Origin: Polychytrium aggregatum
Taxonomy: Eukaryota; Chytridiomycota; Chytridiomycetes; Polychytriales
Assembly: GCF_025602895.1 (NCBI RefSeq)
Contig: NW_026516219.1
Span: 372,001-436,000, forward strand
Reading direction: 5' to 3'
DNA length: 64,000 bases
A model generated the notes under the pieces. That model saw only the letters and a program-made list of their open reading frames with translations. It was not told the origin of the DNA and searched no databases. The translations under genes were made by a program, and so were the position numbers. Of the stretch, positions 37,574 through 44,209 are shown one piece after another (the stretch's first letter is position 1; each line of letters starts with the position of its first letter).

Positions 37574-39916
37574 TCACTGGTCGAGCGTGGCCAGAAAGCC
37601 CTGCACCCTGGCCCGCAGCGACGGGCGGCCATCGTCCCCGATGCCATCGGGGTTATTGCAGGTCTCCAACAGCATCGCTGCCGCCGCTGCTTCGGCCGTT
37701 CGGCCCTCCAGGATGCCGCCGGGCACCACGGCCTCCATCAAGCATCCCGCAATCGCCGCTATCACGATCGGGCACACGGCGTTGCCAAGATGGTGGTATG
37801 CCCGGCTTCCGTTGCCGCAGGATCGGTACCGCGATGCATCGATGATAAAGCTTTCTGGGAATCCTTGCAGCCGGGCGACTTCCCGAGGAGTAAAGAACCG
37901 AGGCGGATCGGTCGTCTCACCCGTGACAGTAGCCTCGGGGTCAGGCATCCCGTTCTTCATCGGCACAAACTCCGAATAGAGCCCGAACCCCGTCCGGTAG
38001 TTGGATATCACTGTCCGAGCCGAGCCATCCAGGTGCACCAGTCGCCGAGCCGGGTCCTCCTGGAAGCTGGCCAGGCTGCGGATCTTGCTCCACTGCGAGG
38101 TGGTCAGGACATATGGAAGCGTTGTGGCCGAGTCGAGCTCCAGGATATCTCGCACTCGCCGGTCAAATCCTCCCACGGTTGAGAGCCGGCCTTGGCGTGG
38201 AGTTACTTCAGGCATTCTCGGCCACCGGAACCGCTGCTGGGCTTGGACGAGGTCGCTTCGGATGCCGGCAAAGTAGACTCGCTGGCGCTGCTGCGGGACC
38301 CACGATCGGGCATCCACAACCCGCCAGTCGACCCAGTACCCCTCGAGCCGCAGCTTTTGGAGGACAATCGCCAGCGTCTCGCCGCCGTCGTGCTGAATGA
38401 GGTGCGCCACGTTCTCGAGCAGAAATGCCTTGGGCTGTCTTGCCCGCAGGACTCGGATGATCTCAAAGAACAGGTTGCCGCGGTCTTCTCGAAATCCCTG
38501 GAGCTTACCGGCTTTGGAGAACGGCTGGCAGGGAAAGCCGGCCGTCAACAGGTCGTGCTCGGGAACGACGTGGGCGTCCCACTCGGTAACGTCGCCTATG
38601 CCGAGCGGCAGTCCCTCGTACTGCTCCGCAACGGCCCCGGTGGGTTCGGGAAGGACAGTGGGGCCGTGGTTGGCATGATAGGCATCGAGTGCGGTCGAGT
38701 CCATTTCCGACATGAGCACACATCGGCCGCCCAGGTAGTCTAGAGCCAGGCGAAACCCACCGACACCAGCAAATAGCTCGACAAAGGTGAATTTGGGAGC
38801 GGCGGCAGTTTCCTGAGCCGATGAATCGCCCAGAGCAGCTTGGCTGTGATGGCGTAGGTCGACGGCGGTATTGATATCGGAGGTGTCGACGACGGTGCCG
38901 ATCTTGGGCAAGATGTCGATCGTATCGATTTGCTCGGTCGCATTGTCGATGGCTGCGGCATTCGTTGGTCTGCTCGAGCTTGCTGATCGGCTGGAGCTGG
39001 CCGAGTTGGATCGACTTCGTCCCCGGGGCGGCTCTGGCAGCGGCGAGCGATAGTTGGCCACGATGTGATATCGATCTTCCTCTCGCAGGGGAGGGCACTG
39101 GATCGACCGCGAACGGAGACCGGCGATCCAGACAGCCCGCTTGGCCGAGAGCAGCCTCAAGATCTCGGCAATCGAGCTGCCACTGTCGGACTGCAGCTTG
39201 GCTCGTTTGGACGGGCGATCGTCAGCTGCAGGGTTACAGCCAGCGCCAGTGGCCTGGGTCTCGGCATCGTTCGGAGTGCTGGCCTGCGACACCGATTTTG
39301 CATGCTCACAGCAGTTGGATGGCGTCGCTGTGTCGGTCTGCTCTGCTTGGTCCAAGGTATTCAGATAGAGCGCCGCAGAGTGCGAGAGATGGATGGCCAT
39401 GAGCTGCTCCTGTCCCGTTTTAAACCCGACGAGCTGCCCGGTCCATTCCTGCCTCTGGACGGGAGACGGTAGGAACAGTGTCGGCTTGATCCAGCCGCCC
39501 TTGATCCAGCTGCTGGCTCGGAGATGCGGGTAGATATCCTGGGCCCGGGCCTGCGGAATGACGATGGCACCGACATGGTACTGGTCCAGCACAGCAGGCA
39601 GGACCCGATCGAAGACGGTCGAGGCGATCGTTGTGGAAGTGCTTGGGTCTCCCGCCGACCCTGGGTACGATGGCGACGACAGGCGGCGCATGACGGACAG
39701 GGAAAAGAACAAATTCAGTGGAGTAGACGAAGCTGGATCGATGAAGCAACGGACGAGGGTCGGCTCGGTGCGAGGTGGTCCAGGGGCAATCTCGTCGAGA
39801 CGATTCGGCGATGGTCCGAGTGGGTCAGATCGGGGCAAAGTCGGCCGAAATCGCGTTGCGGCGAACAACAGCAGATTCTGCCCGATCCATATTCTCCCGA
39901 TCAGAGAGGCGGCCAT
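37574..39916 (-). CDS. Cytosine-C5 DNA methyltransferase, prokaryotic type
   Basis: Transfers a methyl group from SAM to carbon 5 of cytosine in DNA. A single 780-codon open frame with no intron, unlike most neighbours. The catalytic domain fills the C-terminal half: motif I FVELFAGVGGFRLAL near residue 380, motif IV GFPCQPFSKAG (catalytic Cys) near 460, motif VI FLLENV near 500, motif VIII QQRQRVYFAGIR, then a short target-recognition segment, motif IX TPREVARLQGFPESF, and motif X HHLGNAV near 710. Motif order and spacing match bacterial HpaII/HhaI-type enzymes; no BAH, CXXC, chromo, RING or SNF2 domain of Dnmt1, Dim-2, RID or DNMT5 is visible. The N-terminal 375 residues are unrecognised, with serine/arginine-rich linkers. 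The start may be ATG 39691 rather than 39916. It lies 535 bases from the left end of the Fanzor element. Confidence 0.9.
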   Translation of the reverse strand: MAASLIGRIWIGQNLLLFAATRFRPTLPRSDPLGPSPNRLDEIAPGPPRTEPTLVRCFIDPASSTPLNLFFSLSVMRRLSSPSYPGSAGDPSTSTTIASTVFDRVLPAVLDQYHVGAIVIPQARAQDIYPHLRASSWIKGGWIKPTLFLPSPVQRQEWTGQLVGFKTGQEQLMAIHLSHSAALYLNTLDQAEQTDTATPSNCCEHAKSVSQASTPNDAETQATGAGCNPAADDRPSKRAKLQSDSGSSIAEILRLLSAKRAVWIAGLRSRSIQCPPLREEDRYHIVANYRSPLPEPPRGRSRSNSASSSRSASSSRPTNAAAIDNATEQIDTIDILPKIGTVVDTSDINTAVDLRHHSQAALGDSSAQETAAAPKFTFVELFAGVGGFRLALDYLGGRCVLMSEMDSTALDAYHANHGPTVLPEPTGAVAEQYEGLPLGIGDVTEWDAHVVPEHDLLTAGFPCQPFSKAGKLQGFREDRGNLFFEIIRVLRARQPKAFLLENVAHLIQHDGGETLAIVLQKLRLEGYWVDWRVVDARSWVPQQRQRVYFAGIRSDLVQAQQRFRWPRMPEVTPRQGRLSTVGGFDRRVRDILELDSATTLPYVLTTSQWSKIRSLASFQEDPARRLVHLDGSARTVISNYRTGFGLYSEFVPMKNGMPDPEATVTGETTDPPRFFTPREVARLQGFPESFIIDASRYRSCGNGSRAYHHLGNAVCPIVIAAIAGCLMEAVVPGGILEGRTAEAAAAAMLLETCNNPDGIGDDGRPSLRARVQGFLATLDQ

Positions 39917-40451
39917 CCGCCCGTCAACCTACAAGCAGTCAGCGGCCAGGGTGCGATCCAATCGGCCGTTGAGGTGGACCTCTGTCGGGAACTGGTCGCT
40001 CGAATCAGTCGCTGGGGTACTGGCGGCCTCGCCAGCACGAGCCCTCCAGACAGCCACCGAGCCAGTCCGGGGTGCATTCCAAGCCTGCACACTCGCCCGG
40101 ATGCCTGGGACAGCAGATGCCGCAGCAGAGTGTCGGCGAACATGTCTTGAAGCCGGCGTGGGCAGAACCGGGCGCCGGGATTCAGATCGAGAGGACGTAC
40201 ATCAGGCGTCGGTGGTGAAGGCCGCTTGTCTGTCGCCCGGAGCGATTGCGGAGGTTGTCGGGGCGGCTGTGGAGGTAACCGAGGCAGCCAGCTCGGCCAG
40301 CCTGTTAGTGTAAGTGACCTTATCGGACGTAGGCTGCCACAGACTACATGTTCGATTGGAATGGACGGATCTCGGTTGCCTCTTCATATTGCACGGGCAT
40401 GGGGTTTCTTTTGGAGGCCTTGGGTTTGTGGCGCGCATCTACACTTTATTC
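39917..40451. other. Gap between the C5 methyltransferase and the Fanzor element
   Basis: Promoter side of the methyltransferase. A minus-strand open stretch stopping at 40202 runs up to the transposon end and could be a fragment cut by the insertion, but it has no recognisable family. Otherwise nothing seen. Confidence 0.4.
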
Positions 40452-40468
40452 AGAAAAAAACGGGACAA
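40452..40468 (+). repeat. Left terminal inverted repeat
   Basis: Reads inward as CAGAAAAAAACGGGACA. It matches the right end in inverted orientation at 15 of 17 positions, including 13 consecutive bases (AAAAAACGGGACA). Confidence 0.7.
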
Positions 40469-40539
40469 TATAGCCGTTTCCATGAACAGGTAGTATGTGC
40501 TGTGCTTGCGTCAAGCAAAGCCACAAGAAATAAAACAGA

Positions 40540-42912
40540 TCACTTTGGCAGCCTCCGAGTGAAGACCGCCGGTCGCTCTCCGATCTCCACAATCGACCTG
40601 CACACTATGATCATGTTGCGCGCCGCATTGACGTCGCGATTCCACACTGTCCGGCAGCTGGGATTCTTGCAGCTCCTGACAAAGTGGGAATTCGCAACAC
40701 TGGGCGCATCGAGTCCTTCCAACCGAACTGGCTCCAGGCAGTTGGAGCACACCTGCGAGGTGTTGAACTCGTTCGTCGAGGCCACCTTGATGCTTCCATG
40801 AGGGCGATGTGGGTGGCGACGGTGGTGCTCGAATTGCTCAAAGTACCGAGCAAATCGCTGCCTCCGAGGGCTGGATGCATAGCCCTTGCCTTGACGCCAT
40901 GACGCATTGCCAAAGGCGATCACCACATCGGTCCGTATCGCGGCGTGCTTCAGGACGGCCTTGCACATCCTGTCGACGGCCACTTGGCGCCTCTTGTGGC
41001 CCGTGAAGCGATGGTGACGGGCCTTCTTGCCAAGGTGGAAGTCGAGCTGCACTCGCAGCTCCGGTCGCAGGACATGGGTGAGATGGACCTTGAAGGCCTC
41101 CGAGGACGACACCTTGGGCGAGGGGGTGGTCGACATCCAGGTCTCGATGCTGAGTCGATACTTCATGATATTGTGCCACTTGGTGTTGGACGTATGGCCA
41201 CACATTTGCTGGTAGTGGCCATTGGAGAATGAGACCACCTCGTCTTGGTGGCCCGGTGCTTGGATGACCGCCGTGAAGATGGAGCCGACGCCTGGGTCGA
41301 TTCCAATCCAAGTGGTGCGGTTGGGGTCTGGGTTGCCGATGTGGGCCTGGATACGCTGCTCGGCGGTCGGAGGAGGCTCGATGGTCTCGGTGCGATCGGT
41401 TCGACGCACAAACTTGACGAGACCGATGGTGCATCCAATGCCATCGGTGCTGATCTCGTAGTTGAACAGCTTCTTGTTCACGTCTCGCTCTTGGAAGAGG
41501 GAACTACGCAGCTTGAAGCAACTGCGCCAGAGACGATCCTGGTTGTTGACACCGTCCTCACCTTCTTCCTTGAGCATGTCCCGGGTGAGTCCAAGGCGCT
41601 TCTTTGGACCCAGGAGTTCCCAGAGAGTGACGGTGTCGATCTTGACATACTTGGCCTTGGCTGTGCACAGAGGGACCATCGTGCACACGGCCGGAGGAGT
41701 GTCGAGAGCGAGCTGCTTGAGGGCCCAGTTGATCCTGGCGGCCAGCTTGTTGATCTTGGCCTTGGTGGTGCCGAGCTCAGACTTGGCCGTGGTGAACCTC
41801 TTGTCGTCGGAGGGAATGCCTTGGGTAGTGAGCTCGTCCAGCTTGGCCTGGCGCTGCAGCTCGGTGACTCGGAGGGCGGGCATGTCACAGTCGATCCACT
41901 TGTGGACATTGTCGACCATCTTGTCTCGGGCGAGGATTCTCACATGGTGTGAGAGGCGATGAAGGGCCCGGAAGCGGTCCTGGTCGCTGCTGTACCGAAA
42001 CTCGTCCAGGACGTGGCCAAAGTCCGGGTAGAGGAACTCGAGATCGGCCTTGGGTGGAGTCTGCCCTGGTTTCTCGAAGAGCTCGAGACAGACCTCGATG
42101 GCTTCGTGCTTATGCTTGTTGGCTGGGAAGACGGCAGCACAGAAGCGGCGAAGGAGTCGTCAGTAGGCCAGGTCGAGGTGGGTGGTGCAGTTGGTAGCAT
42201 AGGCATTGGCAGCCAGGGTGAGAAGCTGACTGTGAGCACCATCAGGCAGACGAGGGGCCGGAGGCAGGTCTGCGTGCCGAGTGGTCTGGTAGTCGCGAAA
42301 GGAAGCGACCAGATGCTCGTTGTACTGCTCGATGTCCCCGGTCGGGGAGAGGGCACCGTCCTGGACGATCTTGAAGCATAGGCGGATGAATGCAGGGGTG
42401 GCCCTGGAGATGACAGGGACGGGAAGATCCTGCTCGATGCACCGGAGGATGTGCAGGTTGAGCAGCCTGGATGCCTCGAATTGGATCTGGGTCATGGCCT
42501 CGACGGTGGCCTGGATCTTGTCGCGGAGAGCGGGATTGAGACAACAGCCATCCATCGTCTGCTTGAAGCAGCTGAACTGAGGGGCGGATGACCTTCCATC
42601 CACGAGTGGGACGACAGAACTCTTGAGGGGCCGGTATTTGGGACATTTGCTGGTGTTGCAGCGTTCGTGATCGGTGCCATCGCATTTGGGACATCGCTTG
42701 CCAGTACTCGAGGAAGTAGATGGACCAGGCTCGGTGGGATCGACATCCATTGGATCTGCAGAAGCAGTGGTGGTGAGCGACGGAGCAACAGACGACCAAG
42801 CATGCGTGGGATCAGAATACGAACCAGAGACAGGCTCCGACTGTGACTTGGCTTTCTTGGGCCTGGGTGGCCGAGGCTGGCCATCACCGGCACCCTTGCG
42901 CTTCGGAGGCAT
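40540..42912 (-). CDS. Fanzor (eukaryotic TnpB-like) RNA-guided nuclease, one in-frame TGA
   Basis: Expected to use an omega-RNA guide to cut DNA. The frame from ATG 42912 to the stop at 40540 is 790 codons, interrupted only by TGA at 42162-42160 (codon 251, in TAC TGA CGA). N-terminus: two basic clusters (PPKRK; RPPRPKK), a nuclear signal typical of Fanzors, then a zinc-knuckle CPKCDGTDHERCNTSKCP near residue 95. Helical recognition region about 130-450. RuvC-I is WIGIDPGVGS (Asp about 537). At the usual RuvC-II place it has VIAFGNAS with no Glu; instead the Fanzor-specific Glu is in STNEFNTSQ (about 713), directly before a zinc finger CSNC...CKNPSC. RuvC-III is WNRDVNAARN (Asp about 759). 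A GTCAGC...CCCAG intron at 42230-42123 (108 bases, in phase) could remove the TGA; otherwise it is a nonsense mutation, possibly CGA to TGA. Not resolvable from DNA alone. Confidence 0.88.
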
Positions 42913-43089
42913 GGGGGCAGAGGATGGTGAATGCCTGCCAGTGGTACTGGTCAGAGCAGAGACTTTTTTATCGTACAATAGCGCGATGATCAGATCAAGG
43001 CGAGATGAGGGAAGAAAGCAGCAGGACGAAGGTGTGGCATTTATACCCGAGAGCAGGAGCCTGTTGGTGCGGACTGGTTGGGGAAGTGA

Positions 43090-43993
43090 CCCTGTTCAAA
43101 AATCGCCGAGAGGTTCAAGCCAGGGATGTGAACGCGAAAATGGCGGAGTGATTGGAGGGAACTCAACCCCAAAATTGATGGGGACTAAACCCCAAAATGA
43201 TGGGGACTCAACCCCAAAGAAGTTCTCGATGGGATTGAAGTCGGGCGATGCAGGTGGGGTGAAGATCACTGACCATCCTCGGCGCTCGATGCAGTCCAGG
43301 ACAGCCCTTGTCTTGTGCATGCTGACATTGTCCATCACAATCACAGAGTCGTCTGGGAAGCTCGCTCGCTCAAAGAACTCGACCATCGAGTGTGTCTTGA
43401 ATGATGTGGGGATGTACATGCGATGCAGCACACCAGAGTGGTTGATGGCAAATGCAGCCGAGACAGACTTGTGTTTCATGTGATTGCGCTGGCGAAGCGG
43501 AGCACCCTTCGGTGAGTATCCGTAAAGAGGGAAAGGTGGTTCGTCTGATCCCTGTCTCATCGACAAAAACGAATCGTCGTGGGTCGATGGAGCGGACCTG
43601 GTCGCTGAACTGTGCCACTCGCTCATCCAGTCGCTTGGACTTGTAGAGGTGTGTTGCCCTCTTGTGTGAGAGACCTGCTCGGTGGATGGCAGTGTGGCAG
43701 AGTGAGAGTGATACTTTCCTCTGGAGGATGGACTCGAGCTTGCATCGCAACACAGGACCAGTCTGGAACGGGTCCTGTTCAATCAGGGTGCGAATGACTG
43801 GACATGCCTGCTCGAAGAAAGTGGATCTGCGAGCTGGGACCCGGGATGGGTCATCCAGCTTGCATCCTCGGTGCCATCGATGGATGGTGCTCTTGGATAC
43901 ACTGAATATGGAGGCGACCTTACGCAGGCTATGGATGAGGGCGTAGCATCGCAATGCGGCGGTGCGAAAGTCGGATGTGTGGCGAATGGTCAT
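43090..43993 (-). pseudogene. Tc1/mariner-IS630 transposase, frameshifted
   Basis: DDE_3-type transposase. ATG 43993 lies 58 bases inside the right inverted repeat. The N-terminal helix-turn-helix (RKVASIFSVSKSTIHRW) and the first catalytic Asp (FVDETG) are in one frame; the second Asp (VIMDNVSMHKT) and the final acidic residue (SPDFNPIENFF) are in another. The frame changes near 43525-43540, apparently by one extra base. After IENFFG the expected C-terminal helix is missing: the frame runs into three tandem 22-bp repeats (43156-43222). The gene therefore cannot make a full transposase as it stands. It lies upstream of and co-oriented with the Fanzor gene. Confidence 0.85.
43156..43222. repeat. 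Three 22-bp tandem repeats at the transposase/Fanzor junction
   Basis: Three near copies of tgatggggactcaaccccaa in a row. Each unit contains the inverted pair gggg...cccc, so each could fold into a small hairpin. Confidence 0.85.
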
Positions 43994-44051
43994 GGCCAGC
44001 GCGCGATAACATTGGGTAACAAAATATTCGATGAATGGTCAAAATCCCGGG

Positions 44052-44068
44052 TGTCCCGTTTTTTATTG
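44052..44068 (-). repeat. Right terminal inverted repeat
   Basis: Partner of 40452-40468 in inverted orientation (tgtcccgttttttattg on the plus strand). Confidence 0.7.
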
Positions 44069-44209
44069 GATTGCCTGTAATACCACGATCGGGCAGTGAT
44101 CCTGCCCAGCACGAACATCCCACCCGTCGTCCATCATCTCTCCAGGCCCAGGATCCGACCGCTGCTGCTGCCGAATCGCCGAATCGCCGCGCTCGACCAA
44201 GAACACCCC

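Follow-up and report, generated by a model that had tools for sequence, protein, structure and literature searches.

Fanzor1 genes in mariner elements were already published in 2013 (PMC3627910), and PMC10432273, PMC10711439 and PMC11423790 describe RNA-guided cutting by Fanzor proteins and a guide-RNA scaffold predicted to include the duplication. SPu-1 of Spizellomyces punctatus, the element of SpuFz1, has a Fanzor1, inverted repeats and putative TA duplications, and occurs both as full copies and as short 'ghost' copies; it is about 2.1 kb long, and no transposase was identified in the interval bounded by its repeats (PMC3627910, PMC10432273). The target-adjacent motif (TAM) of SpuFz1 is CATA, and CA is conserved beside the left inverted repeat of its copies (PMC10432273, PMC3627910). 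A mariner-like transposase and a Fanzor1 are combined in one element with TA duplications in PUl-1 and PGv-1, where related elements have the transposase part in common and differ in the rest; PGv-1 and its three relatives each occur once and share a stretch of 1 kb at about 78% identity (PMC3627910). For TnpB of IS200/IS605 a gene drive has been described, in which the guide of the nuclease records the element's own insertion site, copies without the element are cut and the element is favoured (PMC11870625). The biological role of Fanzor is stated as unknown in PMC10432273.

The window, which is the whole 64,000-nucleotide stretch of Polychytrium aggregatum DNA analysed, contains a Fanzor-mariner element, here called family A, which is real and of this known kind. 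It resembles SPu-1 in its Fanzor1-type gene, inverted repeats, TA duplications and mixture of full and short copies, but has a transposase inside. As in PUl-1 and PGv-1, both genes lie in one element and related elements share the transposase part; unlike PGv-1, there are hundreds of right ends here, and identity between the related elements is 98% over the first 485-510 bp. The motif that we predict for it is TTA, which like that of SpuFz1 would include the TA and an extra base outside the left repeat, whereas it differs from CATA, and the similarity of the two proteins is weak (E=8.2e-05). A guide recording its own site, with cutting of copies that lack the element, is proposed here as for the TnpB drive, although that system was on bacterial plasmids, used a different transposase and was demonstrated, whereas here we infer it. 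What is added is a comparison of two cassettes and a one-sided rule of insertion sites, which together make a role for Fanzor testable: one genome contains many copies of two natural constructs that are nearly alike in their transposase cassette and unlike in their Fanzor cassette, so that what Fanzor does to insertion sites can be followed and put to the test. Among the open-licence papers that the literature searches listed, none pointed to a comparison of this kind by its title or the start of its abstract. TTA is, in addition, a predicted motif for an uncharacterised Fanzor.

Results

Limits and copies of the element

A whole-genome DNA search with positions 40452-44068 as the query gave 62 match rows, the best 40 of 1249 candidates being scored, and 30 loci, the window copy included, were cut out. 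The flanks of 28 of these are unlike, making them independent; L010 repeats the window site and L022 repeats L018. At 26 of the 30 loci the match, of 95-100% identity, stops no more than 3 bp short of either end of the query. Other copies therefore keep both ends, and the shared-ends transposon proposed in the earlier note withstands the comparison. Its limits do not: the junctions across copies showed 40452-44068 to be 10 and 9 bp too narrow, and these limits were dropped for 40442..44077 on the minus strand (3636 bp), which are common to other copies.

Along the minus strand the order is left end (44077, the transposase side), transposase, Fanzor and right end (40442, the 3' side of Fanzor). 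The left terminal inverted repeat (44052..44077, minus strand) and the right one (40442..40467, plus strand) are each 26 bp long and match at 19 of 26 positions by hand count; the 17-bp inverted ends with 15 of 17 matching positions that had been claimed are present when read by eye. Junction comparison placed TA target-site duplications at 40440..40441 on the right-end side and at 44078..44079 on the left-end side. TA adjoins the left end at 28/28 independent loci and the right end at 46/47 independent right flanks, and family A shows both the TA target duplication and the inverted ends of a Tc1/mariner element. In one copy (L027) the left inverted repeat has lost its outermost bases to sequence that also stands after the right TA, which gives the appearance of copying from the target.

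The right-end pattern of family A matched the genome 258 times with at most 3 mismatches, alleles counted, and its reversed control 0 times. The PF07282 zinc ribbon was over the cut-off at at least 150 places, again with alleles counted and with the best 150 of 663 candidate places scored. Two copies of 300-370 bp (L039 and L040) have retained both ends together with the final part of Fanzor, and resemble the 'ghost' elements of S. punctatus (PMC3627910, PMC10432273). Family-A copies at L037/L041 and L040 were observed to be inserted exactly at the TA beside the apparent end of another related element, and their predicted guide would therefore be the sequence of that end.

Transposase and Fanzor genes

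Both genes lie on the minus strand and each has its domain match, which bears out the claim of a co-oriented Fanzor and Tc1/mariner-type transposase in one transposon. The claim that the unit is complete stands for its boundaries and fails for the genes of the window copy, where Fanzor has a stop and the transposase a frameshift. The transposase gene (43187..43993, minus strand; span taken from intact copies of 268 aa) is present in the window as two overlapping frames. It matches PF13358 (DDE_3) with E=1.9e-18 when a window piece is scanned and 4.3e-21 when the copy is intact, and 34 residues separate the second D from the E by hand count, family A having a DDE/D transposase of the Tc1/mariner type. 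A frame of at least 260 aa with the usual start is found in 19/30 loci. Compared by sequence with the PDB, the transposase gave no solved relative.

The Fanzor1-type gene (40540..42912, minus strand) encodes 790 aa in intact copies and has an in-frame stop at 42160-42162 in the window copy; a frame of 790 or 833 aa is kept in 22/30 loci. The mean dN/dS was 0.32 among 21 intact Fanzor genes, the window's allele L010 being one of them, and 0.19 among 14 transposase genes of 268 aa (intact copies only); in the intact copies of both genes, silent differences outnumber protein-changing ones.

The window piece of Fanzor matches PF07282 (E=7.7e-10) and by itself had no match in the PDB at 0.001. With a five-row family profile, the best solved relative was SpuFz1 (E=8.2e-05); up to E=10 there were four sequences, the next being GtFz1 (0.032) and the others LaTranC, with none of the Fanzor2 type. 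In the profile alignment the catalytic D, E and RD line up with those of SpuFz1. The Fanzor/TnpB superfamily has been given the motif D-X(125,275)-[TS][TS]-XX-C4 zinc finger-X(5,50)-RD (PMC3627910), which we read by hand in L014 as D539, T718-S719, C722/C725/C748/C753 and R759-D760. The signatures that set Fanzors apart from bacterial-type TnpB are a DPG at the first aspartate of RuvC and an alternatively placed glutamate (PMC10711439). In our alignment IDPG (539) and E715, which lies directly ahead of the zinc finger, are invariant in 5/5 rows, and E715 aligns with the E of DEYKTS in SpuFz1; in our reading it is probably the alternative-position glutamate of PMC10711439. Judged by comparison with PDB sequences, the protein is probably of the Fanzor1 type and is far in sequence from the solved Fanzors; it may or may not represent the undescribed lineage suggested in the earlier note.

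Candidate guide RNA

The candidate omega-RNA scaffold (40440..40539, minus strand) begins at the Fanzor stop, takes in the right inverted repeat and ends at the TA; it is proposed from its fold. It is predicted to form a terminal hairpin and a closing stem that includes the U of the duplication. The fold of the window right end was not significant (z-score -0.71, with 53/200 shuffles as good), and the right end of the second family described below folds somewhat better than its shuffles (z -2.24, 3/200). The same stretch is retained in the short remnants L039 and L040. By analogy with SpuFz1, whose guide is 14-15 nt (PMC10432273), the predicted guide of the window copy is the flank just past the TA (40420..40439, minus strand).

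A one-sided T at the insertion sites

Read along the genes, family-A sites have the form xxT-TA-CAGG at the left and GTG-TA-flank at the right. T precedes the left TA at 28/28 independent loci, whereas the background frequency of T before TA is 12.9% of 3724 NTA when the flanks of all 30 loci are counted, and 390/2878 in the window. Genome-wide, the left end was found 172 times with T and 6 times with another base, in counts that include alleles and exact left ends only. Among these six, C119 is an allele of a T site, and C101 and C376 are mutual alleles. This leaves four independent sites without T (L098, L100, L101 and L102), all with family-A right ends, one of which (C358) is a short remnant. 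In the left-flank set T stands at 61/65, a biased rate because these four flanks were added on purpose; one position further out, C occurs in 1/65. After the right TA the base is C in 16, G in 13, T in 9 and A in 8 of 46, which is no bias like that on the left. The T as a part of the duplication was considered and ruled out, the right junction being G-TA and the base after it unbiased.

Since SpuFz1 needs CATA and its copies carry CA beside the left repeat (PMC10432273, PMC3627910), the target motif of the family-A Fanzor is predicted by analogy to be TTA, composed of the flank T and the TA duplication (44078..44080, minus strand, in the window).

A second family with another Fanzor

Four loci (L044, L046, L048 and L054) are 98% identical to family A across their first 485-510 bp and belong to a second family, of which L173 is a full element of 3797 bp with its transposase frame cut to 172 aa and L166 a remnant. 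Per 50-bp window, L173 is 84-100% identical to family A up to position 850 and mostly 30-70% thereafter, and this drop at 850-900 coincides with the end of the family-A transposase gene (891). The Fanzors of the two families are 43% identical (339/779), and their right ends differ too.

At nine independent sites of the second family, the base before the TA is T in 5, C in 3 and G in 1. These are the sites with a matched right end, eight of the GGTTTGACTG kind and one, C35, of the related GGATAGACTG kind; L074, whose right end is unmatched, was for that reason not counted. The difference from 28/28 in family A gave P=0.0019 in a Fisher test, which took C2 and C174 instead of C35 and C57 with the 5:4 split unchanged. 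In another ten left-end variants, whose right ends are unmatched, T stands at 6/10, and adding them gives a split of 11:8 (P=0.00024 vs 28/28). With a near-same transposase the site rule thus differs along with the Fanzor and right-end cassette. Since the second family is itself above the background of 13% and its right end differs as well, attributing the rule to Fanzor is our interpretation.

Haplotype pairs and linkage

The assembly carries both haplotypes of some sites, and the interior was more divergent than the flanks in 6/6 pairs (by locus L009/L010, L041/L042, L018/L022, L012/L172, L044+L158/L173 and L040/L175). The window pair (C79/C141) differs by 107 substitutions within the 3636 bp of the element and by 5 across about 2900 bp of flank; the alignment gave 33 flank differences, of which 28 fall in the outer 80 bp, at the point where the haplotypes diverge, and were left out. 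The corresponding figures are 158 in 3632 against 8 in about 960 for C372/C119, 86 in 3385 against 2 in about 2100 for C76/C223, 81 in about 3300 compared against 0 in about 700 for C63/C326 of the second family, and 8 in 380 against 0 in about 155 for the short remnant C34/C79. C124/C379, with 16 in 3631 against 2 in about 2980, shows a weak contrast (0.44% inside). At a further site, a full-length copy in C398 stands opposite a 308-bp interval in C246 that includes a family-A left end, and over the query the flanks are 100% identical. An insert is present in C113 as well as in C405, of 3633 and 3736 bp by coordinates, and an unoccupied allele was not seen at the two sites, few as they are, that were probed by joined flanks.

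Linkage between common variants in 28 copies had a mean r2 of 0.435 within 10 bp; past about 30 bp it was no higher than in shuffled data (0.037). Transversions alone show the same loss, which rules out recurrent CpG mutation as its cause. Taken together with the divergent interiors, this suggests that the elements are rewritten in place by repair, though ordinary conversion or mixing during assembly could give the same picture.

Discussion

The reading that we prefer, at a probability of about 0.5, is that family A is a Tc1/mariner element of the autonomous type which carries a Fanzor1 and has a guide RNA at its right end, and that Fanzor-assisted homing leaves the one-sided T. The transposase would insert the element at a TA, and the right end would be transcribed into a scaffold RNA with the flanking DNA as its 3' tail, so that each copy would carry a guide to its own site. 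Fanzor would recognise TTA and the guide match on an unoccupied allele or after exact excision, and would spare the right junction of the element itself, where the sequence is GTA. Once the target is cut, homologous repair may copy the element into the gap; insertions without a preceding T would be neither defended nor spread in this way and would be lost, leaving the T on one side, while interrupted repair might give the short remnants. The T bias and the interior divergence fit Fanzor-assisted homing or retention by repair. Counting against this, the second family is also above background for T (5/9 vs 13%), and the transposase or left end that both families share may therefore be responsible for part of the preference; that family also has a different right end, and Fanzor is thus not the sole variable. 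The four independent sites without T all have family-A right ends, the fold of the window right end is no better than shuffled sequence, the L173 transposase frame is of only 172 aa, and the unoccupied allele that would be the target was absent from the two sites probed.

As a rule, Tc1/mariner elements have a symmetrical target preference. An ordinary element of this type with Fanzor as a passenger, whose transposase itself favours TTA in one orientation since its ends are unlike, would give a one-sided T just as well; inverted ends that match at only 19/26 positions make an oriented complex possible, and both the second family, with the shared transposase cassette (5/9 vs 13%), and the unmatched left-end variants (6/10) are T-rich. 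Yet a near-same cassette goes with T at 28/28 in one family and 5/9 in the other, and the right flank has no mirror-image A (8/46), and we regard this explanation as rather less likely than not. Families with many copies undergo mutual conversion, and ordinary ectopic gene conversion, with Fanzor uninvolved, may account for the interior divergence and for linkage that falls to the shuffled level beyond about 30 bp, transversions included. It leaves the one-sided T unexplained, and interiors 2-4.4% apart within flanks 0-0.8% apart in 5/6 pairs (0.44% in the sixth) would imply a very high rate; we consider it quite possible, if somewhat less than an even bet. Much the same weight, a little on the doubtful side, is given to an artefact of assembly or read correction in a high-copy repeat as the source of the divergent interiors and mosaic copies. 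Mixing of consensus sequence could act on the scale of 20-30 bp at which linkage is lost, but there are no N gaps within the loci, and copy-specific bases evidently survive, since the Fanzor frame of 790 or 833 aa is kept in 22/30 loci and 296/718 variable columns are singletons. Moreover, some haplotype differences are only 26-57 bp from unique flank, and at one site a full-length copy faces the 308-bp interval with a family-A left end.

If Fanzor-assisted homing does operate, a eukaryotic Fanzor may be a homing nuclease that filters the persistence of its cut-and-paste transposon: only insertions next to the target motif would survive, both chromosomes would be driven to carry the element, and a swap of the Fanzor and guide-RNA cassette under one transposase would change the rule. 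This wider view we put forward tentatively, as one that could hold but for which we would not claim even chances.

Other Fanzor copies were observed in the same genome. A third group (L050-L053, L056 and L057) has the right end ..GGATAGACTGTA, and the sequence past this end was shared in 3/3 cases inspected; these Fanzors therefore seem to lie inside a different, larger repeat. Family B is of the Fanzor2 type, and its copies (L002, L003, L006 and L007) encode a 476-aa protein with a TnpB/Fanzor2 body, the best PDB match of L003 being the TnpB-like protein L79 (E=3e-24). In the N-terminal part there is a weak MerR match below the cut-off and, by eye, the apparent start of a serine recombinase, and the protein is possibly an IS607 TnpA-Fanzor fusion. 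The family-B gene has two differing positions per allele pair (L002/L006 and L003/L007), which is not raised, but as a control it says little because B copies are near-identical anyway. In the window, positions 37574-39916 on the minus strand hold a 780-aa frame which by eye resembles a cytosine-5 DNA methyltransferase.
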